This document shows positions 52,252-63,101 of a stretch of DNA of 64,000 nucleotides, one piece after another. This DNA comes from Halanaerobium hydrogeniformans. GTDB taxonomy: Bacteria > Bacillota > Halanaerobiia > Halanaerobiales > Halanaerobiaceae. Under the pieces are notes generated by a model. It had not been told where the DNA came from and did no database searches. It saw only the letters and a list, made by a program, of their open reading frames with translations. The first letter of the stretch is position 1, and the number at the start of each line of letters is the position of its first letter. The DNA lies in NCBI RefSeq assembly GCF_000166415.1, contig NC_014654.1, forward strand, positions 2,480,001 to 2,544,000. Reading direction: 5' to 3'. The translations under genes and the position numbers were made by a program.

Positions 52252-52975
52252 TTAGGATACCCTTAATCTTGAAGGATTGTCCACAAATCCATTATCTCTC
52301 GCCTCTTTGATAGGTCTGAGAATACATTTATCGTTATGGTATTTACGAAGTATATTAAAACTACCATTCTGATCAGCATTAATTAATAGGCCCTCGTTAG
52401 TTTTAAAGAGACCTCTAGTAATTCTTCTGGATTTATCATAGTTACTTTTATTTATTTTTTCCAGATCTACTGAACAGCGGCCAAATCGAATACGGTCATA
52501 CTAAAGCTTACCTTGCGTATTATAAATTAAAAGCTTTAGTGCTTTTCACATTATATTTAGACTGTATCTTTTTAGATAAGGATAAGAGTAATTTGTTATC
52601 TCTAATTCTAACAGCTAAATTGGTAAAAATTATTTCACAGGGATTACTGTTCATATGTTTAAAATTAGGTGACCCTGGCTGCCCCTTATATTTTTGAGGA
52701 TTCTTTTTATAATCTTTGAGTGAATTAAAAAAACTTTTCCAGTCCTGAGCTAACTGCTTTAATGCCTGCTGTCTGTTATGGGAGTGAAGGTAGTCATTAT
52801 GCCAGTTATTTTTATATCTAGTTTCTAATTCAGTATAGACAGCTTTTACATCTTTATTATTTTTAATCTGATAATTGACTGTATTATATAATTTAGAGCA
52901 ATGCCAGGCTAATTCATTAATTATTACTAATTGCTTATGGCTTAATTTAGGCTTGAATTTAAATGATAATCGCAT
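52252..52975 (-). pseudogene. tnpB: tnpB remnant (RNA-guided nuclease family) lacking the central RuvC region
   Basis: The N-terminal part (52975-52520, 151 codons, MRLSFKFKPKLSHKQLVIIN onward, with GQPGSPNFKH) stops at 52520. A C-terminal part reads in another stretch down to a stop at 52252, with CSVDLEKINK, RRITRGLFKT, and INADQNGSFNILRK, the last carrying the third RuvC Asp. The central segment with the first two RuvC acidic residues and the first zinc-finger Cys pair is missing. The protein is non-functional. Confidence 0.88.
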
Positions 52976-53369: not shown

Positions 53370-53957
53370 ATGAATTTTATAAGAAAAAATGAAAAATTAA
53401 GGAACTTCGTTTTTAATAAGCTCAGTAAAAGTTGGGCTGAAGATAAATTTAAAAGAATAAATAATTTTTTAAATAAAGATGAAAAAATTCTCGACCTGGG
53501 AGCAGGCAAATGTGCGTTAAGTTTTATCTTAAAAAAGGAAGGCTATAATGTTACTTCAGTGGATGTTGAAAATTTGAGTTTAACTGATCAAATTGAACCT
53601 ATTATCTATGATGGGGAAAACCTCCCCTTTGCTGACAACAGCTTTGATACTGTTTTATTATTAACAGTTCTTCATCATATACCCGAGCCAGAAATAGTCT
53701 TGAAAGAGGCCCTCAGAGTAGCTGATAAAGTAATAATAATTGAAGATGTTTATACTAATCCAGTTCAAAAATATTTAACATACTTTACAGATAGTTTATT
53801 TAACTTCGAATTTATTGGCCATCCTCACAGTAATAAAACTGATAAGGAATGGAAAGAAACATTTAAAAAACTTAATTTGAGTTTGCTTTATACTAAAAAA
53901 GAAAATGTTTTGAAGTTTTATACGCAAGCTTTATATCACCTGCAAAAAAATAATTAA
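53370..53957 (+). CDS. Class I SAM-dependent methyltransferase
   Basis: A 195-residue enzyme with the SAM-binding motif ILDLGAGKCALSFIL (residues about 42-56), acidic strand-2 end SVDVENL, and YDGENLPFADNSFDTVLLLTVLHHI typical of the Methyltransf_11 family. The second half is short and gives no substrate clue. GGTGG lies before the ATG. It stands alone, with a 38-bp palindromic terminator after it. Confidence 0.9.
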   Translation: MNFIRKNEKLRNFVFNKLSKSWAEDKFKRINNFLNKDEKILDLGAGKCALSFILKKEGYNVTSVDVENLSLTDQIEPIIYDGENLPFADNSFDTVLLLTVLHHIPEPEIVLKEALRVADKVIIIEDVYTNPVQKYLTYFTDSLFNFEFIGHPHSNKTDKEWKETFKKLNLSLLYTKKENVLKFYTQALYHLQKNN

Positions 53958-53975
53958 AAATCATCTTAAAAATAT

Positions 53976-54013
53976 AAAGACCTGTAGATATTTTAAAATA
54001 TCTACAGGTCTTT
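53976..54013. terminator. Perfect 38-bp palindrome, bidirectional terminator
   Basis: Two 19-base arms meet without a spacer (53976-53994 and 53995-54013; AAAGACCTGTAGATATTTT and its complement). In RNA the A/T-rich centre opens as the loop and a T run follows on both strands. It serves convergent genes. Confidence 0.9.
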
Positions 54014-54039
54014 TAATTGATATTTATTTATTTGTAAAT

Positions 54040-54759
54040 TTACTTAGCATTATTTTCATTTGTTTCTACTTCTACATCATCAACTACATCAGATTTATCG
54101 AGGAATTTAGGAATTAATGATACCAGAACTATTAGCACACCAGCAATAGCGATATACATTAATATCTGCATAGGACTTTCTCCTCTAGCTAATGCAGAAG
54201 CCATTAAGATATATGCAGTTGTACCAGGTATCATGGTTACCCATGAGACAAAGAAATATAATGGCAGACTGATGTCAGTTAAACCATAAACATAGTTTTG
54301 AAGATTAAATGGAAAAACCGGAACTGATCTTGTTAAAAGTAGCATTCTCCAGCCATTTTTCCTTACTCCATCATCTATCTTTTTAACATGTTCATTCTTC
54401 TCTTTCCAGCCCTCAACCAGGTCTCTTGCAGCATAACGACCAATCAAAAACGCTGCTGTAGCTCCAAGAGTTGAACCTAATGAAGCATAAATAATTGCAG
54501 GTAGTGGAGCGAAAACAAGTCCTCCTAAAATTGCAACAGGTAAACCAGGCAAGAAAAATATACAGGCAGCTATCCAGAGACCTATATAAATTAATGGAGC
54601 CATTACCCCAAAGCCCTGTACCCAATCCTGTAATAAATTAAGATTGTCTCTACTAATATAGTCGGCTAAACCAAAATAATGAATTACAAAAGCTGCTATA
54701 GCTATTACAGCTATAGTAATTATAAGTTTTTTCTTGTTTTTCTTCTTTTCTTCTGTCAT
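54040..54759 (-). CDS. TVP38/TMEM64 (VTT-domain) membrane protein
   Basis: A 239-residue DedA-superfamily membrane protein with about five to six hydrophobic helices. It has the VTT-domain core FLPGLPVAILGGLVFAP, GSTLGATAAFLIGRYAAR, and RSVPVFPFNLQNYVYGLTDI. Lysine-rich N-terminus and acidic C-terminal tail (VVDDVEVETNENN). VTT proteins act in lipid scrambling or small-molecule transport, and are often found with redox enzymes. It follows the Hdr-like genes by 18 bases and is probably their co-transcribed membrane partner. Confidence 0.9.
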   Translation of the reverse strand: MTEEKKKNKKKLIITIAVIAIAAFVIHYFGLADYISRDNLNLLQDWVQGFGVMAPLIYIGLWIAACIFFLPGLPVAILGGLVFAPLPAIIYASLGSTLGATAAFLIGRYAARDLVEGWKEKNEHVKKIDDGVRKNGWRMLLLTRSVPVFPFNLQNYVYGLTDISLPLYFFVSWVTMIPGTTAYILMASALARGESPMQILMYIAIAGVLIVLVSLIPKFLDKSDVVDDVEVETNENNAK

Positions 54760-54777: not shown

Positions 54778-55548
54778 TTAGGATAATACTTCTTGAATTT
54801 TTTTCTTGGTTTTATAGCGATTAACCCAACTTGCTACTGATCCTTCAAGTCCAGGAAAATCAGATTCTGTTGTCCATACATCCCCAAATATTAAATTTAA
54901 TATATGAACAGCTTTTTTACCACCTTTGATCATTGAAGCTCTACAGGCAGCACAGTAAGTCACTAAATAGTCAGTTTCAAATTCGGCAGTCCTTTTTTCC
55001 ATGATCTGTTGTGCTAAATCAGGGTTAGCAGGTACAACCATACCTCCAAAACCACAACATCTAGTATTTTCTTTAGTATGTGGTGGTTCTTCTGTATTAT
55101 AACCCAGTTGATCTATAATCCAACGTATACCAGCGTGAATATCCTCTCTATCTCTGGTCGAGCAAGAATCGTGAACACCAAATGTTATATCACTATCTTT
55201 AGCTTTACCAACTGTCCCTTCAGGCATACCAATCTTAGGCATTAACTCCCACAAAGAAATTACTTTTTGATCTGGACTACTAGCAGACATTGTTAAATAA
55301 CATGACTGGCAGGCAACTATTATTTCATCAGCACCTAAGGCATCAATCTCTTCCTGTAAACCTGCATAGCGTTTTTTAAACTCATCATATTGGCCTAATG
55401 CTTTTGTAGGTTTACCACAGCATTTTAAAATTGCTCCAGTGCCAGGTAATTTATTTTGTAAATAATCAATTACTTTTCCTACTAATTCCGGGCTATATGA
55501 AGACAAGCTACAACCTGGAATAAATACTCTTTTTGTTTTCGTTTTCAT
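54778..55548 (-). CDS. HdrB-like protein with two CCG domains
   Basis: A 256-residue soluble Fe-S protein. Two complete CCG motifs are visible: Cys13, Cys43-Cys44, Cys80 and Cys83; then Cys129, Cys164-Cys165, Cys199 and Cys202. In HdrB this pattern binds non-cubane [4Fe-4S] clusters that cleave disulfides. It starts exactly where the upstream flavoprotein gene ends (shared base at 55548), so the two form a complex. Together they resemble HdrBC fused to an NAD(P)H-oxidising flavoprotein. The substrate, a disulfide, persulfide or thiosulfate-derived species, is inferred. Confidence 0.9.
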   Translation of the reverse strand: MKTKTKRVFIPGCSLSSYSPELVGKVIDYLQNKLPGTGAILKCCGKPTKALGQYDEFKKRYAGLQEEIDALGADEIIVACQSCYLTMSASSPDQKVISLWELMPKIGMPEGTVGKAKDSDITFGVHDSCSTRDREDIHAGIRWIIDQLGYNTEEPPHTKENTRCCGFGGMVVPANPDLAQQIMEKRTAEFETDYLVTYCAACRASMIKGGKKAVHILNLIFGDVWTTESDFPGLEGSVASWVNRYKTKKKIQEVLS

Positions 55549-57326
55549 TATTTAGAGTCCTCCTCTTTATCAGAAGCCGGTTGACTAGTTGTAAAGAACT
55601 TAGAAAATCCTAATCTTTGATGCCATTTAATAGCGTTATGGCCTTTAATTGGTGATTCACCATTATTTTCTTTAACAGCAATTTTCCTTAAATCCATGAA
55701 GCGATCTTTTAGTTCAAATTCTTGTGGACAAACTAAGGTACATTGACTGCACATATTACAGGAATAATAAACTAAAGGATCTATTCCAACATCTATTACT
55801 TCCTGGAATAATGCTTTTGGTGAGTCACAATATTTTTCTAACATTAAGCAGTCTTTAACACATTCTTTACATTCACATTCTAAGCAGCGTAGTGATTCAC
55901 CCTTAGCTTCAGCAATATTAAAACCTAATTCTACTTCATTAAAGTTATTTTTGCGTTCTTCAACATCAATCATTCTCATATCTACCCTGCGTCTTACAGG
56001 TTCTTGAGGATCAATTTCTTTTTCTAATTTCGTTTCATAAGCACCTTCGTTTTCACGATCTGCGAATAAATCTTCATCTTTTAAATATCTATCAATAGAA
56101 ATTGCAGCTTTTCTTCCGTGAGCCATTGCTTCTACAGCTAAAAGAGGAGTCCCTTTGCAATCTCCACCTACAAAAACATTTTCTGTTTCTGACTGTAGAG
56201 TTATTTCATCAGTCTGATTTAGCTCAACTGCTTCATCTTCAACAAAAGAATCGTCTGCTCTCTGTCCAATGGCAAAAATTACTGTCTCTGCTTCAATTTC
56301 TCTTAAGTTGTCTTCACAGTATGCTGGATTAAAATTACCTTCACTATCAAAAACCTGTTCACATTTCTTTAAGGTAATTCCTTCAACATTTTCTTCACCC
56401 TTAATCTCTTTTGGACCCCAACCAGGGTTCATTATTATTCCTTCTTCTTCTGCATCTTCGATTTCCCAGGAGTGAGCAGGAATTTCATTTCCACTTTCCA
56501 AACATGCTACATTTATTTCTTCTGCACCAAGTCTCCAGGCAGTACGTGCAACATCCATTGCAACATTTCCACCACCAATTACTACTATCTTTTTACCAAT
56601 TTCTACTTCATTGCCTAAAGCAGCATCACGTAAAAAGTCAGCACCGATTAATACACCTTCTAGATCTGCTCCATCTATAGGTATCATAATACCCTTATGA
56701 GCACCTGCTGCAACATAAACAGCATCAAAATCTTCTTTTAATTGAGCAAATTCGATGTCTTTTCCAACTTCAGTATTTAGATGAATTTCTACACCTAGTT
56801 TTTCTAAGATACTATATTCATAGTCAATAATATCATGAGGTAAACGATAAGCGGGAATACCAAATCTAAGCATTCCTCCTACCTCTGGAAGTTTTTCATA
56901 AATATTTACCTGGTGTCCTTCTTTCTGTAAATGATAAGCTGCAACTGCTCCTGAAGGACCAGCACCAATAACCGCAATTTTTTTGCCAGTTTCTGCTTCA
57001 CGGCTTAAGTCCCAATCTGCAGGGTTGTCTGCCATATCAGCTGCAAAGCGTTTTAAATTTTTAATAGAAAGAGCTTCTTCAAGTTCTCCCCTTTTGCATT
57101 CCTCTTCACAAGGGTGGGCACAAACTCTTCCTAAAATTCCAGGGAAAATAGTTTTCTCTCTGATCAATCTGATAGCTTCTTTATATTTGCCATCTCTAAC
57201 TAAAGTAATATAACCCTGGACATCAATATCCAACGGACATCTTGCCTGGCAATATGGTGGTTCATCTGCCAAACAATCTTCAATAACTTCATTCATTTCA
57301 TTAAGCACTTTTTCTGTTAACTGCAC
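55548..57326 (-). CDS. NAD(P)H flavoprotein with GltD-like and HdrC-like domains
   Basis: A 592-residue electron-transfer enzyme. The N-terminal Fe-S segment (1-100) has CQARCPLDIDVQGY and CAHPCEEECKRG. A GltD-like core follows, with FAD loop VIGAGPSGAVAAYHL and NAD(P) loop VIGGGNVAMDVARTA, and FVGGDCKGTPLLAVEAM. The C-terminus (about 480-570) adds two [4Fe-4S] sites, CLECECKECVKDC and CNMCSQCTLVCP, as in HdrC. There is no GltB nearby, so glutamate synthase is ruled out. It probably passes electrons from NAD(P)H (or ferredoxin) to the HdrB-like partner. Confidence 0.9.
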   Translation of the reverse strand: MQLTEKVLNEMNEVIEDCLADEPPYCQARCPLDIDVQGYITLVRDGKYKEAIRLIREKTIFPGILGRVCAHPCEEECKRGELEEALSIKNLKRFAADMADNPADWDLSREAETGKKIAVIGAGPSGAVAAYHLQKEGHQVNIYEKLPEVGGMLRFGIPAYRLPHDIIDYEYSILEKLGVEIHLNTEVGKDIEFAQLKEDFDAVYVAAGAHKGIMIPIDGADLEGVLIGADFLRDAALGNEVEIGKKIVVIGGGNVAMDVARTAWRLGAEEINVACLESGNEIPAHSWEIEDAEEEGIIMNPGWGPKEIKGEENVEGITLKKCEQVFDSEGNFNPAYCEDNLREIEAETVIFAIGQRADDSFVEDEAVELNQTDEITLQSETENVFVGGDCKGTPLLAVEAMAHGRKAAISIDRYLKDEDLFADRENEGAYETKLEKEIDPQEPVRRRVDMRMIDVEERKNNFNEVELGFNIAEAKGESLRCLECECKECVKDCLMLEKYCDSPKALFQEVIDVGIDPLVYYSCNMCSQCTLVCPQEFELKDRFMDLRKIAVKENNGESPIKGHNAIKWHQRLGFSKFFTTSQPASDKEEDSK

Positions 57327-57480: not shown

Positions 57481-58032
57481 TTAATAGTCAATTAACTTAA
57501 TTAAAAGCTTACTTCCACTATAAATTCCTAAAATGATAAAAGGGAGATAAAGCCAGGCATTTAACGCCAAAGAAGCAAATGCAGTATATAAACCCCCAAT
57601 ATTACAGCCAATTGCTATCCGTGCACCATAACCCATTAACCAGCCACCAATTAAAACAGTAACAAATTGTTTTTTGTTTTTTATTTTTTTTAATTTAAAC
57701 TGCCCTGCTAATAAAATTGCTATTAAAGCACCAATAATTATGCCGAAATTTGACCAGCTGTATTTATCAAGCCAGGGCAAGGTATATTCGTAATACTGCC
57801 AGGCTTCCCAATTTTCAACACCTACTCCAAACAGAGAAATTATCCAGGCACCTAATCTGGCAAAACCACTTGTTATTGACCAAATCTCTCCTGAAACAGC
57901 AAAATAGATAATATTAACTACAGCAAGCAAGATACCACCAAACCAATAAGGCCATGGTTTTTTAAATGCTATATCCCATGCTTCAGCTCTTTTTTCAGTT
58001 AGTCTTTGTAATAGTGATTTTCCATTCACCAA
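57481..58032 (-). CDS. YeeE/YedE-family membrane protein, C-terminal half of a split TsuA-type transporter
   Basis: A 183-residue membrane protein with about four helices. The conserved LMGYGARIAIGCNIGG (Cys143) is the signature of the second YeeE half. YeeE/TsuA imports thiosulfate using three conserved Cys; one of them is here. Start is a TTG at 58032 or the GTG three bases later, both after GAGG. It is the last gene of the yedE-tusA-yeeE group. Confidence 0.9.
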   Translation of the reverse strand: MVNGKSLLQRLTEKRAEAWDIAFKKPWPYWFGGILLAVVNIIYFAVSGEIWSITSGFARLGAWIISLFGVGVENWEAWQYYEYTLPWLDKYSWSNFGIIIGALIAILLAGQFKLKKIKNKKQFVTVLIGGWLMGYGARIAIGCNIGGLYTAFASLALNAWLYLPFIILGIYSGSKLLIKLIDY

Positions 58033-58050: not shown

Positions 58051-58218
58051 CTACCTCATAATTTTTTTTCGAGCCCATTCAGGAATATTTGTCATTGAAC
58101 AGGTATGGTCTAATTCAATAAATAATTTGTCACCTATTTTTAATTTATTCATTTCTTTTTCTGTTTTTATTAAAGGAAGAGGACACGGCTCCCCCGTACA
58201 GTCTAAATGTTTATCCAC
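58051..58218 (-). CDS. TusA/SirA-like sulfur-carrier protein (short ORF)
   Basis: A 55-residue protein. LDCTGEPCPLPLIKTEKEM carries the CPxP motif whose Cys holds a persulfide in TusA, followed by KLKIGDKLFIELDH and CSMTNIPEWARK. GTG start at 58218, 11 bases after GGAGG. It is a little shorter than usual (about 75). It sits between two YeeE-type half genes, as in TsuA/TsuB systems where the TusA-like protein takes up sulfur from the transporter. Confidence 0.88.
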   Translation of the reverse strand: MDKHLDCTGEPCPLPLIKTEKEMNKLKIGDKLFIELDHTCSMTNIPEWARKKIMR

Positions 58219-58242: not shown

Positions 58243-58881
58243 TTAAAATTTATGCTTTTCCCACCAGTAACTGAGCAAATATAAAAAAAGCAAAAATATT
58301 ATTTGTAAAACTAAAGCATTTCCCCAACCGACAAGCTGAGGTAAATGAGTCGTTTTTTGACTTCTAATTAATTGATACCAAAAGGAAGCATCATAGCTGC
58401 CGTGTACAGAACCAGCAATAAAGCCTACTATAACTACCCACTGCAGTTTATAACCTTCCCCCAATCTGGTCAGGGTTCCAGAAGCACAACCACCGCTTAC
58501 TGCAGCACCCAGACCAAAAACAAAAGCTCCGATTGGAATATGCCACCCTAATGGAACAAATTTACCCTGAACCGGTAAACCATTAAGCTGTTGCTGGTAT
58601 TGTATATAAGCAAAACCAATACTAACAATAATTGTAGATAAAATTAATGCTCTACTGAGTTTTGTTAATCCAAACAAAAACGGATCTCTTAATGCAGCAG
58701 TAAAACAAATTCTTGATCGCTGTAAAATAAAACCAACTATTAAACCAAAAACCCAACTTTTAGCAAGAGTTATTTCTAAACTATTACTCAAATATAAATA
58801 GATATATATAGAAAAAATTATAATAATTACAGCCAATTTTAACTGCCAGTTATTCTGCTGTTCATACTCCTGCTGCTTCAT
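58243..58881 (-). CDS. YeeE/YedE-family membrane protein, N-terminal half of a split TsuA-type transporter
   Basis: A 212-residue membrane protein with about five helices. Conserved cysteines lie in LQRSRICFTAALRD (Cys59) and AVSGGCASGTLTRLGEGY (Cys132), signatures of the first YeeE half. With the 57481-58032 protein it would give the three-Cys set of TsuA. Its start is one base after the stop of the regulator gene. Confidence 0.9.
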   Translation of the reverse strand: MKQQEYEQQNNWQLKLAVIIIIFSIYIYLYLSNSLEITLAKSWVFGLIVGFILQRSRICFTAALRDPFLFGLTKLSRALILSTIIVSIGFAYIQYQQQLNGLPVQGKFVPLGWHIPIGAFVFGLGAAVSGGCASGTLTRLGEGYKLQWVVIVGFIAGSVHGSYDASFWYQLIRSQKTTHLPQLVGWGNALVLQIIFLLFLYLLSYWWEKHKF

Positions 58882-60180
58882 TTATTTATTCTCCTCAAAA
58901 TGATAATTGAATTTTTCGTTACTTATAATAAACTTATAAATTTTATAAGCAATAGTTAAATTTAATTTATCATCAAAATTATCAAAATCAAGCCCTAGTA
59001 TTTCCTGGATTTGTTTAATCCTATAACGCATAGTATTTGGATGAATGCTTAATTTTTCAGAGGATACATTGATGTCTCCATCTTCTTCTAAAAAAACCTC
59101 CAGTGTTTCTAACCACTCATTATCTTTTTCAAGGGAATATTTAATTAATTCACTTAAATATTCATCTGCAAAATTAAAAAGTTCTTTTTTGTCGAGATGC
59201 CACAATAACCTTAAAACCCCGAGTCCTTCGTAAAAAACAATATTTTTTTCCTGTTCAGTATTTTCTAAAAAATCAAGTGTATAATTTGCTTTTTTAAAGC
59301 TATCAGCTATCTCTCTACAGTCTTCAGTATATAGACCTCCAGCAGCCATAATTTCAACTTTTTTAAAAGCTTTTTGTGTTTTATTATAAATTAAATCAAT
59401 ATCATTTTCTATTTGTACTGTCTTATTTGGATAATTAATCAATAATACTATATCTTCATCATAAGAAAAAATAATATATTTTGATTTAATATGGGTTCTA
59501 ATAATCCGATGCAAATATCTAATAATCTGTTCTTCAAGCTCATAATAATAAAGAGTTGTACCTTTATTATCATCTGAATAAATTTTTGAGAAATCAATCC
59601 TTAAAGTATAGAGTTGATAAGATAAACTTAAATCCCAACCAGCCAGTTCACCTCTTTTAATAAGTTCTTCTTTAGATTTAACCCTGCCATTTATTAAATC
59701 CTCTATTAATTCACTATTACATTTTTGAGCAAGTCGTTGGACAATATAATTTTGGTGAAGTTTCAATGAAAATGCATAAGCAGCCTGTAAAATAGCTAAA
59801 CAGGCATCTTTTTTTAAACTCTTTTCTTCTAGAATAACTAAAAATCCAAGTGTCTCATCATTATGATTCAGTTTAACCTGAACTTCTCTAACCTCTTTTT
59901 GCTTCCACTGATAAACCACTCTTTTAATTAAAATATCATATTCACAAAATATTTCTTCACTTGCTTTAATTTCTTTTTCTTCTAAATAATTATAAAATTC
60001 TTTATCAGCCTTAAGAGCTTTTGAAATATATATAGTATCATCCTGGTATTTATCCAATAAGAATACAGGATTATCAACTTCTTCAATCAGAGCATTACAT
60101 AGAGTTTGCAATCCGCCATCATTTAACAAGATCTTTTGATATTTCTGCTGTAAGGACAGTATTTTTTCTTCTCTATTCAA
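58882..60180 (-). CDS. PucR/CdaR-type transcriptional regulator
   Basis: A 432-residue regulator. The N-terminal 150 residues look like a sensor (GAF-like) domain, the middle has a degenerate GGDEF-like CdaR region (about 175-300), and the C-terminus carries the PucR helix-turn-helix: TLEVFLEEDGDINVSSEKL then HPNTMRYRIKQIQEIL. It is first of the group regulator-yedE-tusA-yeeE, so it probably controls uptake of the sulfur compound. The effector is unknown. Confidence 0.9.
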   Translation of the reverse strand: MNREEKILSLQQKYQKILLNDGGLQTLCNALIEEVDNPVFLLDKYQDDTIYISKALKADKEFYNYLEEKEIKASEEIFCEYDILIKRVVYQWKQKEVREVQVKLNHNDETLGFLVILEEKSLKKDACLAILQAAYAFSLKLHQNYIVQRLAQKCNSELIEDLINGRVKSKEELIKRGELAGWDLSLSYQLYTLRIDFSKIYSDDNKGTTLYYYELEEQIIRYLHRIIRTHIKSKYIIFSYDEDIVLLINYPNKTVQIENDIDLIYNKTQKAFKKVEIMAAGGLYTEDCREIADSFKKANYTLDFLENTEQEKNIVFYEGLGVLRLLWHLDKKELFNFADEYLSELIKYSLEKDNEWLETLEVFLEEDGDINVSSEKLSIHPNTMRYRIKQIQEILGLDFDNFDDKLNLTIAYKIYKFIISNEKFNYHFEENK

Positions 60181-60398: not shown

Positions 60399-61355
60399 TT
60401 ATTGATCTGTCTCAATAGGAAGATCTTCTCTAGAACTCCACTCAATCCAGGAACCATCATAATTAGCTACATCTTCATAGCCGAGTAACTGGCTTAAAAC
60501 AAAAGTTGTATGAGATGATCTAACACCTGACTGACAATAATTATATGCGGCTTTATCAGGAGTTACCCCTTGTTCCTCATAAATTTCTCTTAATTCATCA
60601 GCAGTTTTAATTAAATTATCATCATTGAGATTTTCTGTCCATTCTATCCAGATAGGAGTAGGAATTCTCCCTGCTCTCTCAGCTGGATTCAATTTCTCCG
60701 CACCAGTAAATTCATCTTCAGCACGAGTATCTACAATGTTTTTATCGTCATCATCAATAGCAGCTAATATATCATCTGCATCAACAAGCATTGATTCATC
60801 AACTTCACCCATCTCATATTCTACAGCATCTCTACCTGGGCTAGAAAGTGCAATATCATAGTCAAGGGCACGCCAGAAATCTAACTGACCATCCAGTATT
60901 CGTACATCTTCATGGCCTAACATAGTCATCATCCACCACATTCTTGTAGCATCGTGGCCACCACCTGAAGTATAAACAACTACTGTATCATCATGACTGA
61001 TTCCATTTTCACCAAGCCATTCGGCTAAACCTTCATGAGAAATTCTCATACCAGCATATTCATGATCTGGATCAGTTACATCTGATCTCCAAACCTGAAT
61101 AGCACCTGGAATATGACCCATAGAATAAGCATCCGCTCTTCTGAAATCAATTATTGCAACATCATCATTACCTTTGATCTCATTAAGCTCCATAGCACTA
61201 ATTAAAGAATCTGTATTTTCATAACCTCTTTCTTCAATTGGGACATAATTTTCCATGTCAATTTCTAAATCAGTATAAAGAGTTGATTCATAAAATAAAC
61301 CCCCACCAATAATTAAAACAGCCACTAATAAAACTATTATCGTCTTTTTTTCCAC
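60399..61355 (-). CDS. Exported tandem rhodanese sulfurtransferase
   Basis: A 318-residue thiosulfate-type sulfurtransferase held outside the membrane by an N-terminal helix (about 5-23). Domain 1 (about 45-165) has IDFRRADAYSMGHIPGA, but its active-site loop reads VYTSGGGHDATR without Cys. Domain 2 (about 195-310) has the active loop YNYCQSGVRSSHT with the catalytic Cys. The protein is very acidic, fitting salt-exposed localisation. It lies upstream of the thiosulfate-transporter-like genes. Rhodaneses have been implicated in thiosulfate use by Halanaerobium; here that role is inferred. Confidence 0.92.
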   Translation of the reverse strand: MEKKTIIVLLVAVLIIGGGLFYESTLYTDLEIDMENYVPIEERGYENTDSLISAMELNEIKGNDDVAIIDFRRADAYSMGHIPGAIQVWRSDVTDPDHEYAGMRISHEGLAEWLGENGISHDDTVVVYTSGGGHDATRMWWMMTMLGHEDVRILDGQLDFWRALDYDIALSSPGRDAVEYEMGEVDESMLVDADDILAAIDDDDKNIVDTRAEDEFTGAEKLNPAERAGRIPTPIWIEWTENLNDDNLIKTADELREIYEEQGVTPDKAAYNYCQSGVRSSHTTFVLSQLLGYEDVANYDGSWIEWSSREDLPIETDQ

Positions 61356-61605: not shown

Positions 61606-63101
61606 GTCAATAACTTTTGAAAATGTCACTTTTTTATACCAATTTTATCTTGAGAAAATGTCACCCCCAAAGGGGAGATATGTTTGGGGTTTAAACCAAA
61701 CATATCAGGCAATTTGAGTGAGAAATATTTTTTCCAGCATTTTCAGTATATCGTGATCACTGTCTTCAAAAGTTACTTTTGGCCAGGCTTGATGTCCATA
61801 TTTATAATAATGCCCATCGTCTGGTCTGTATTTGTTATTAGAATTAGTTTTACTCTTTTTAACTTTTGATTTTTTATGTTCAGTCCAATGGATAACATCA
61901 TAAATTTTTTCACCATATTGTGCTTTCACACCGAATTTAGGACTAAGAAGAACTTTGATTTTCGATTTTGGATAGACTGACATACTATTAGTAACGACCT
62001 TGAAGCGCTGATTATAAAAAGAAAAAGTTAGTCCATTATCAAGTATTCTTTCTTCCTTAACGCAAAGTATATTATCTATACAAATTTCTTCAGGAAGAGT
62101 TCTAAAAGCGCAAATGGTGTCTTCAGGTGCTACAGCAAATTTTTCATTAAATTTGATTAAGTAGTCAGCAAAAAACTCATTAGCCTGCTCGATAGTGGAT
62201 ATACCTGCTATCTTAAATTCAACAGGCAGTCTGCTTTGGAGAGTATCCCATAATCTTTCAATACGGCCTTTAGCTTGCGGTGAGCGTGCAGGGATCATAG
62301 TAATTCCAAGTTCTTTCATGGCTCTTCCAAACTGAGTATCTTTAACAGTTTTACCAGCAAGTTGTTCTTCAATTGTAAGTTTGTCTGCCTTAGGTGAACG
62401 GAAGATAGTATGTCTATCGGTATAAATACTGACGGGTATACCATAATTTAAGACCACAGATCTTAAAGTTTCAAAATATCCCTGTCGGCACTCGTTTTTA
62501 GTCATGTAAAGGCCCATTATTTTACCGGTAGAATCATCTATGGCACCATGAATGTCATATTTCTCTCCAGTACCAAACCAGTCGTGTGGACTGGCATCAA
62601 TTTGGATTAATTGGCCTTCTTTTGCTTTGCGTTTACGACGGTGATGAACTTTCTTTTTGCGATGCTTTTTGGGACTTTTGACACCATTGCTGCTTAAAAT
62701 AGTGTGAAGTGCGTTGTAACTAATGGTGATGTTTTCATGTTCTTCTAGTAATTCTTGAAAATGCATGAAGTTAGCACTTTGATACGAGTCTGATTTTTTC
62801 AGGGCAACAATTTTACTGACGAAATCCTCAGAAAAAGCATGACTAGGTTTACGACCTTTATTTTTATGAACTAAAAATGATGGACCTTCTTTTTTCACAC
62901 CTTTCTTCAAACGAATTATTTGGCGAACACTAAGGTCTAAAGCCTGTGCAGCTTCTGAGTTGGTCATACTTTTATCAATGACCATAGAAATGACATGATA
63001 CCTATTCAATTGTGTTTGGGACATAAGATAATATTTTTCTCCTCTCATAGTGACATTTTATCAAGATAATTTCACTATGACATTATCACAAGATAATCAC
63101 A
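61605..63101 (-). mobile_element. IS1202-like insertion sequence (about 1.5 kb)
   Basis: Terminal inverted repeats are imperfect: TGTCAATAACTTTTGAAAAT at the left end against TGTGATTATCTTGTGATAAT at the right (minus strand). Inside each end a second copy of TATCTTGAnAAAATGTCAC occurs (61645-61664 and 63050-63069). The flanks carry a 17-19 bp direct repeat, long as expected for the IS1202 group. A hairpin at 61677-61706 overlaps the transposase stop. The element looks complete. Confidence 0.85.
61705..63024 (-). CDS. DDE transposase, IS1202/ISNCY type
   Basis: A 439-residue transposase with an N-terminal helix-turn-helix (TNSEAAQALDLSVRQIIRLKK), a lysine/arginine-rich HRKKKVHHRRKRKAK stretch, and DDE residues in IQIDASPHDW, SIYTDRHTIF and KGRIERLWDTLQ. 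A C-terminal DNA-binding region follows. The ATG at 63048 lies inside the site AGGAG, so the ATG at 63024 is preferred. It appears intact. Confidence 0.9.
   Translation of the reverse strand: MSQTQLNRYHVISMVIDKSMTNSEAAQALDLSVRQIIRLKKGVKKEGPSFLVHKNKGRKPSHAFSEDFVSKIVALKKSDSYQSANFMHFQELLEEHENITISYNALHTILSSNGVKSPKKHRKKKVHHRRKRKAKEGQLIQIDASPHDWFGTGEKYDIHGAIDDSTGKIMGLYMTKNECRQGYFETLRSVVLNYGIPVSIYTDRHTIFRSPKADKLTIEEQLAGKTVKDTQFGRAMKELGITMIPARSPQAKGRIERLWDTLQSRLPVEFKIAGISTIEQANEFFADYLIKFNEKFAVAPEDTICAFRTLPEEICIDNILCVKEERILDNGLTFSFYNQRFKVVTNSMSVYPKSKIKVLLSPKFGVKAQYGEKIYDVIHWTEHKKSKVKKSKTNSNNKYRPDDGHYYKYGHQAWPKVTFEDSDHDILKMLEKIFLTQIA

Follow-up and report, generated by a model that had tools for sequence, protein, structure and literature searches.

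In Thermotoga, the enzyme NSR is a cytoplasmic NAD(P)H-dependent reductase of polysulfide and thiosulfate, and its induction accompanies that of yeeE, as related in the available excerpt of PMC9431562. For thiosulfate decomposition of the TusA type, the excerpt available of PMC11073785 states that the electron route is unknown. Thiosulfate reduction by Halanaerobium matters for souring in fractured shale wells, and rhodanese and Asr have been considered in that context (PMC5497025, excerpt). Here we describe a pair of genes of Halanaerobium hydrogeniformans that encode a flavoprotein fused to an HdrC-like domain and an HdrB-like protein. The pair lies in a stretch of 64,000 nucleotides (NC_014654.1, positions 2,480,001 to 2,544,000), henceforth called the window. 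We favour the reading that it constitutes an NADH-dependent Hdr-type reductase of persulfides or disulfides, acting on imported sulfane sulfur of the thiosulfate or polythionate type, and we give this reading about an even chance of being correct. As such, the pair is a concrete candidate for the electron source in cytoplasmic thiosulfate decomposition. Three things are new: the pair is set apart from the type described by NCBIfam model NF045663, an NADH site is predicted, and a gene cluster is found that has a link to a sensor. No paper describing either the pair or the cluster was recognised in our literature search.

Architecture and nucleotide site of the gene pair

Both genes lie on the minus strand and overlap by 1 bp. 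The flavoprotein-HdrC fusion (55548..57326, 592 aa) has a GTG start with an AAGGAGG ribosome site, and the HdrB-like protein (54778..55548, 256 aa) has an ATG start with a good ribosome site. The fusion protein is made, in this order, of an N-terminal iron-sulfur (Fe-S) domain (Fer4_20, residues 17-100, E 7.7e-26), FAD and NAD Rossmann domains of GltD/NfnB type (Pyr_redox_2, residues 116-404, 8.4e-31) and a C-terminal HdrC-like dicluster; it thus has the Fer4_20, FAD and NAD(P) Rossmann domains of GltD/NfnB-type NAD(P)H flavoproteins. The dicluster segment has no Pfam match. Its nine cysteines (481, 484, 486, 489, 493, 523, 526, 529 and 533) are invariant in 84/84 relatives of the window type and in 19/19 relatives of another type, found in the context of a molybdenum hydroxylase (Mo-hydroxylase) gene. 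The HdrB-like protein matches PF02754 (CCG) in two stretches (2.8e-17), and the two CCG motifs expected of an HdrB protein are complete (C13/C43C44/C80xxC83 and C129/C164C165/C199xxC202); all ten cysteines are invariant in the 23/23 and 47/47 relatives of two alignments. Invariance of the cysteines across so many relatives rules out that the two open reading frames (ORFs) arose by chance.

An earlier sequence-only reading of the window had seen in this locus a GltD-type flavin module, an N-terminal Fe-S segment and an HdrC-like end in one chain, followed directly by a partner with two CCG motifs, and the domains, the cysteines and the gene overlap agree with that description. The absence of HdrA, also part of that reading, extends to the whole genome (closed, 2,613,117 bp), where the only HdrA model tried, HdrA2, gave no match over its cut-off; the best one, of 36 bits, falls on a ferredoxin segment. 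The HdrA flavoprotein of HdrABC complexes was therefore not found, and the only two CCG matches of the genome are those of the HdrB-like gene itself. After the dicluster segment, 36 aligned window-type flavoproteins share a tail (residues 556-580, SPxKGHxAIxxHQxLGFSxxFT) with two invariant histidines, which perhaps serves for docking to HdrB.

The structural model of the HdrB-like protein (predicted local distance difference test, pLDDT, 93.4) has the fold of the methanogen HdrB chains 5odc_B (Z 17.1) and 8rvy_B (Z 17.6), though LutA (Z 19.9) and EtfD (Z 17.9) fit equally well. The methanogen proteins share with it the fold and the two CCG motifs. Identity is, however, 17-19%, and the window pair has no HdrA but, in its place, a predicted GltD-type NADH module. 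The model of the flavoprotein has a pLDDT of 81.5, with low values in the C-terminal dicluster region. Its nearest structures are NfnABC (9bov_A, Z 46.4, 38% identity; 9n5v_A, Z 44.7) and StnABC (8oh5_C, Z 45.4), while Nfn large subunits and the glutamate synthase small chain match with Z values of 36-37 (2vdc_G, Z 36.1). Judging from these models, the flavin module belongs to a lineage in which bifurcating enzymes occur. Taken together, the Nfn and Stn flavoprotein subunits (9bov_A, 9n5u_A, 8oh5_C) resemble the window protein in joining an N-terminal Fe-S part to an FAD/NAD(P) fold, at 35-41% identity and with Z values of 44-46. They differ from it in that their YRR motif is LE in the window protein, which has in addition an HdrC-like end and an HdrB partner, and no Nfn partner subunits occur among the genes scanned around the pair.

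The glutamate of this LE, Glu277, is invariant in 83/83 aligned rows of the window type. Because it stands where solved NADPH-dependent relatives have YRR, the electron donor of the window-type flavoprotein is predicted to be NADH. The NAD(P)H module of the sequence-only reading is thus upheld as regards the NAD domain and narrowed to a predicted preference for NADH.

Two types of the family and a conserved gene cluster

A profile of five HdrB proteins found matches in 45/398 Bacillota genomes at 1e-30. Gene maps revealed two contexts: that of the window, and one with a Mo-hydroxylase and a radical SAM protein, together with associated genes, as neighbours (a locus of this kind, L073, was checked against NCBIfam). 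In a tree of 91 HdrB sequences, built by a quick method after leaving out near-identical rows, mostly of Vibrionaceae, a single branch with an approximate likelihood ratio support (SH-aLRT) of 100 splits 72 window-type rows from 19 rows of the other type. At least 17 of the 19 Mo-hydroxylase-context relatives show an alignment gap where the window protein has its NAD(P) domain (residues 216-364). By these comparisons the two types are separate clades.

The Mo-hydroxylase type is the one to which NF045663 (diclust_near_Sec) belongs. On this model the L073 member reaches 1073 bits, whereas the two chains of the window reach 299.5 and 231.7 bits, under the cut-off of 530. The shortfall is partly mechanical because the window protein is split in two, and these scores are for the separate chains rather than for a fused protein of the window type. 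The order of Fe-S, FAD, HdrC and HdrB modules is common to both types, and the window proteins match the two ends of the model. The NF045663 members found here are, in contrast, single chains that lack the NAD(P) Rossmann domain and lie beside a molybdopterin aldehyde oxidoreductase and TrsS (L073). Filing the pair under NF045663 was rejected on architecture, as the window type keeps residues 216-364. The NADH type, partly covered until now by one annotation model, is hence set apart from the "near Sec" type.

A scan of named genomes yielded 178 relatives among 250 pattern matches, of which the best 80 were kept; by their labels, the relatives belong to Bacillota, Spirochaetota, Fusobacteriota, Nitrospirota, Myxococcota and Pseudomonadota. 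In all, 95 window-type loci were compared: 63 have the flavoprotein and HdrB split as in the window, 19 have them fused, 10 have HdrC-HdrB with no flavin module, as in Clostridium ljungdahlii, and three were called without a flavoprotein, one of them (L128) having a broken frame. The window pair represents the split form of proteins that make up a single chain in other members of the family. The count leaves out six duplicates, the 19 Mo-hydroxylase-context loci, L022/L023, and L104, L106 and L117-L119, in which the ORF caller found no HdrB. L117 and L118 are one 10,450-bp contig with the same match in metagenome-assembled genomes (MAGs) of Synergistales and Phycisphaerales; since the contig turns up in both, one of the bins is probably contaminated.

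The gene context is conserved. Among 78 loci with at least 6.5 kb on each side, 67 have a rhodanese gene, 69 a VTT gene, 59 ynjB and 47 a CDP-alcohol transferase (CDPAP) gene, as detected with profiles built from families found in those same loci; when one locus per genus or record title is taken, the figures are 44 for rhodanese, 44 for VTT and 35 for YnjB out of 50. A signal, an anchor or a lipobox was recognised by a simple rule in 68/73 of the rhodaneses. The "simple soluble" enzyme of the sequence-only reading is therefore an understatement, as the pair belongs to a conserved cluster of membrane and transport genes. Three loci of Alkalithermobacter and a Clostridiaceae MAG (L160, L165, L167) present the pair without rhodanese or VTT, after a small protein of ~110-120 aa.

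Co-occurrence with YnjB was also found at the genome level. YnjB exceeds its cut-off in 19/21 Bacillota genomes with a window-type HdrB and in 10/377 of the others (Fisher p 3e-23, 398 genomes), under a 1e-60 line between HdrB types that was set after seeing the maps and that leaves a distant locus with window-type context (L088/G176) among the "others". Counted by family, the figures are 11/13 and 9/~131, the total of 144 families being approximate. Of the YnjB loci with no strong HdrB match, nine were inspected: one (L175) has a divergent HdrC-HdrB, six have no recognised reductase, and two (L176, L180) have a flavin disulfide reductase of the MerA/lipoamide dehydrogenase type instead of HdrB. 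Such a substitution suggests that what these enzymes have in common is the use of NAD(P)H to reduce a disulfide-like bond; two cases are, however, few.

The YnjB, VTT, permease, ATPase and rhodanese profiles also label genes of the ydjXYZ-ynjABCDE array of E. coli K-12, which combines DedA proteins, the ATP-binding cassette transporter YnjB/C/D and the sulfurtransferase YnjE. Unlike the window cluster, the E. coli array lacks flavoprotein-HdrC and HdrB, and has the 4Fe-4S protein YdjY and the AhpD-like YnjA. It is activated by FNR, according to the excerpt available of PMC3688515, and no function for it was found in the literature search.

In Vibrionaceae, the start of the operon adjoins a divergent gene for a TtrS-like kinase in 22/22 loci. 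When the V. harveyi pair and the kinase of A. fischeri were scored against NCBIfam, TtrS and TtrR came out as the best models, with a sensor domain of the phosphonate-binding kind; the lead of TtrS over other models is about 220 bits, though its score is under the cut-off. An exact copy of the TtrR box known from V. parahaemolyticus (PMC11293645, excerpt) is present in 22/22 intergenic regions, with 0.003 occurrences expected per shuffled region. ThsSR senses thiosulfate in Shewanella and is described beside a thiosulfate reductase operon in the available part of PMC5408782. In this way, an orphan operon with an E. coli counterpart becomes tied to sulfur oxyanions.

Proposed function and competing explanations

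The disulfide or persulfide reductase of the sequence-only reading is the part that we retain as the favoured function, backed by the exported rhodanese, the YedE and TusA genes, the TtrSR-like sensor and the replacement by MerA/lipoamide dehydrogenase-type enzymes in two loci. The two proteins, whose chains are fused in other bacteria, would form one cytoplasmic enzyme. Hydride would pass from NADH to FAD in the GltD/Nfn-like module, and electrons would travel through N-terminal [4Fe-4S] clusters to the C-terminal HdrC-like dicluster; the HdrB-like subunit, with putative non-cubane clusters, would then cleave a persulfide, a disulfide or an S-thiosulfonate. The substrate may be sulfane sulfur from outside the cell, taken from thiosulfate or polythionate by the exported rhodanese, imported as such or on a thiol by YedE or by the YnjBCD-type transporter, and presented to the enzyme by a TusA-type or small-thiol carrier. 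A thiol and sulfide would be formed and NADH re-oxidised. Like Thermotoga NSR, the proposed enzyme would reduce sulfane sulfur in the cytoplasm at the expense of NAD(P)H; NSR is, however, a flavoprotein that resembles the NAD(P)H-dependent sulfur reductases of archaea, and the available excerpt of PMC9431562 makes no mention of HdrB.

Several observations weigh against this proposal. LutA and EtfD, which are not known to reduce disulfides, match the model of the HdrB-like protein as well as HdrB does. The reading frame of the window's own TusA is broken, and YnjB is absent from the window genome. YedE halves are found in only 13-14/78 loci and TusA in 11/78, while 7/78 loci, one of them from a Halanaerobium, have neither rhodanese nor VTT. 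The TtrS and TtrR scores lie under the cut-offs of NF040750 and NF040749 (363 of 750 and 210 of 290 bits, respectively); in most loci the spacing between the TtrR box and the ttrS-like gene hardly varies, so that the box may serve that gene only, and the 22 loci are close relatives. As the window genome has no AsrC over cut-off, sulfite left from thiosulfate would have no Asr route there. Lastly, a family-wide association with selD, described below, is equally compatible with a function in selenium metabolism.

A broader possibility, which we put forward tentatively and regard as doubtful, is that the pair supplies electrons, in the cytoplasm and interchangeably with other reductases, to a widespread and so far undescribed sulfur-import system in which a rhodanese loads a thiol carrier with sulfane sulfur outside the cell. 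The system would comprise the exported rhodanese, DedA/VTT, the YnjBCD-type transporter and the CDP-alcohol transferase, and ydjXYZ-ynjABCDE would be its counterpart in E. coli. A dedicated thiol carrier, small or lipid-derived, would enter as a persulfide or heterodisulfide, and the NADH-fed HdrB would free the sulfur. Depending on the lineage, the reductase slot would be occupied by NADH-HdrCB, by HdrCB with another donor or by a MerA-type enzyme. If this were true, a bacterial, non-methanogenic heterodisulfide cycle would exist.

Electron bifurcation has to be weighed because the nearest structures of the flavoprotein are the bifurcating NfnABC (9bov_A, 9n5v_A) and StnABC (8oh5_C). The GltD-like FAD would then be the bifurcating flavin, NADH oxidation driving the joint reduction of a disulfide or persulfide and of ferredoxin, or the reverse, and the N-terminal clusters could serve ferredoxin. 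We consider this unlikely. The genes scanned around the pair include no Nfn-type second flavin/[2Fe-2S] subunit (no genome-wide search was made), no HdrA2 exceeds the cut-off in the genome, and an invariant Glu takes the place of the NADPH-binding YRR. Moreover, the 10/95 loci with HdrC-HdrB and no flavin module indicate that the reductase half does not need that module. The glutamate synthase small chain, which is not known to bifurcate, also matches the flavoprotein (2vdc_G, Z 36.1). The opposite direction of sulfur metabolism, oxidation of a persulfide with NAD+ reduction, would fit the sHdr theme of CCG-domain Hdr-like proteins encoded with TusA and rhodanese (PMC6067878, in the part available). 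The window genome has, however, a single CCG gene and no HdrA2 (LbpA was not searched for), and we regard an oxidative role as very improbable.

The remaining explanations concern the substrate. Import and reduction of a selenium compound, by means of YedE/YedF-like transport, rhodanese and the reductase, might be suspected from three observations. For the YedE halves and for TusA of L023, the best-scoring NCBIfam models are named after selenium, with every score under cut-off; the sister type is the "near Sec" NF045663; and selD exceeds its cut-off in 20/21 window-type genomes, a figure read off a listing by eye, vs 241/377 others (Fisher p 0.002). Such a role is nevertheless improbable: nothing in the window genome passes the selD cut-off, the best match being an AIRS protein, the Mo-hydroxylase type is a separate clade without the NAD domain, and in Vibrionaceae the sensor belongs to the tetrathionate/thiosulfate type. 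A plain selenium role in the window organism, where no selenophosphate pathway was seen, was rejected on the lack of selD over cut-off; the association across the family is real, and selenium may generally accompany this physiology. Detoxification of a metal or metalloid, with the pair as the anaerobe's counterpart of a MerA-type reductase, seems to us rather more remote. It would fit the two YnjB loci in which MerA/lipoamide dehydrogenase-type enzymes replace the pair, and it agrees with arsenosugar-type glycosyltransferases over the cut-offs of TIGR04282/TIGR04283 in the L023 cluster and with ArsP_1-like permease halves adjoining the pair in L021. Yet no known type of mer or ars gene is represented among the window proteins scanned, the commonest neighbours are rhodanese and VTT, and glycosyltransferases lie near the pair in only 16-17/78 loci.

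Neighbouring genes in the window and spread within Halanaerobium

In the window, the pair is part of a run of genes in a single direction, all on the minus strand. The run begins with a two-domain rhodanese (60399..61355) that has an N-terminal hydrophobic anchor and the active-site loop CQSGVRS; we infer that this protein is extracytoplasmic. A PucR/CdaR-type transcriptional regulator (58882..60180) comes next. It is followed by a YeeE/YedE sulfur transporter split into two genes (58243..58881, Sulf_transp profile 1-155, and 57481..58032, profile 162-309), with a TusA-like sulfur carrier (58051..58218) in between. Downstream of the flavoprotein and HdrB-like genes, and 18 bp after the latter, lies the gene for a VTT/DedA-TVP38 membrane protein (54040..54759).

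The ORF of the carrier is cut short at 55 aa by a frameshift at an A8 run (at about 58060), and its CxxP motif is kept. A 74-aa copy is intact in the sister locus L018, and the downstream frame of the window gene is conserved to about 57996, which suggests that the frame was disrupted recently by mutation, or that slippage or an error in sequencing accounts for the break. A Sulf_transp protein and a TusA-like carrier are also the components of the YeeE/YeeD (TsuA/TsuB) thiosulfate uptake system. The window transporter differs in being encoded by two genes with the carrier in between, and its YedE halves score far under the NCBIfam cut-offs for this system (35-67 bits vs 400-645), as does the TusA of L023 (36.7 of 147.5).

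In L018 and L021 the VTT gene is followed by a five-gene cassette (YnjB-permease-CDPAP-permease-ATPase). The window has no such cassette at 53957-54040; the VTT gene and a methyltransferase gene are 82 bp apart there, and are also adjacent in L019. Transposase genes flank the cluster: an integrase-core gene at 61705-63048 and, by eye, a transposase-like fragment at 52520-52975. No tRNA gene was found in the window with ARAGORN.

The flanking transposases are in keeping with the patchy spread of the cluster in the genus. At E 1e-10, the HdrB gene was found in 5/12 Halanaerobium genomes and in 0/26 other genomes of the order, a distribution that suggests gene gain or loss. A YnjB-type binding protein accompanies it in 4/5 of the genomes with the HdrB gene, and is found in 0/7 of those without it. 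In two of these genomes, ynjB comes directly after the VTT gene, with two permeases, the CDP-alcohol transferase and the ATPase; in the other two it lies elsewhere, with PucR, TusA, rhodanese and glycosyltransferases of its own, those of one such cluster, L023, being the ones over the arsenosugar-type cut-offs. Asr sulfite reductase was considered as a partner and rejected, as AsrC is over cut-off in 3/12 Halanaerobium genomes, of which only one (G015) has the pair; the window genome is among the 9/12 without it.

Two loci of the genus have further neighbours. In L021 (7187-8241), two ArsP_1-like half permeases, one just under the Pfam cut-off, stand directly upstream of the flavoprotein gene. 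In H. saccharolyticum (L020, 3846-7259), and in this locus only, the pair is followed by HydABC-like genes, identified by eye as an iron hydrogenase, a NuoF-like protein and a NuoE-like protein.

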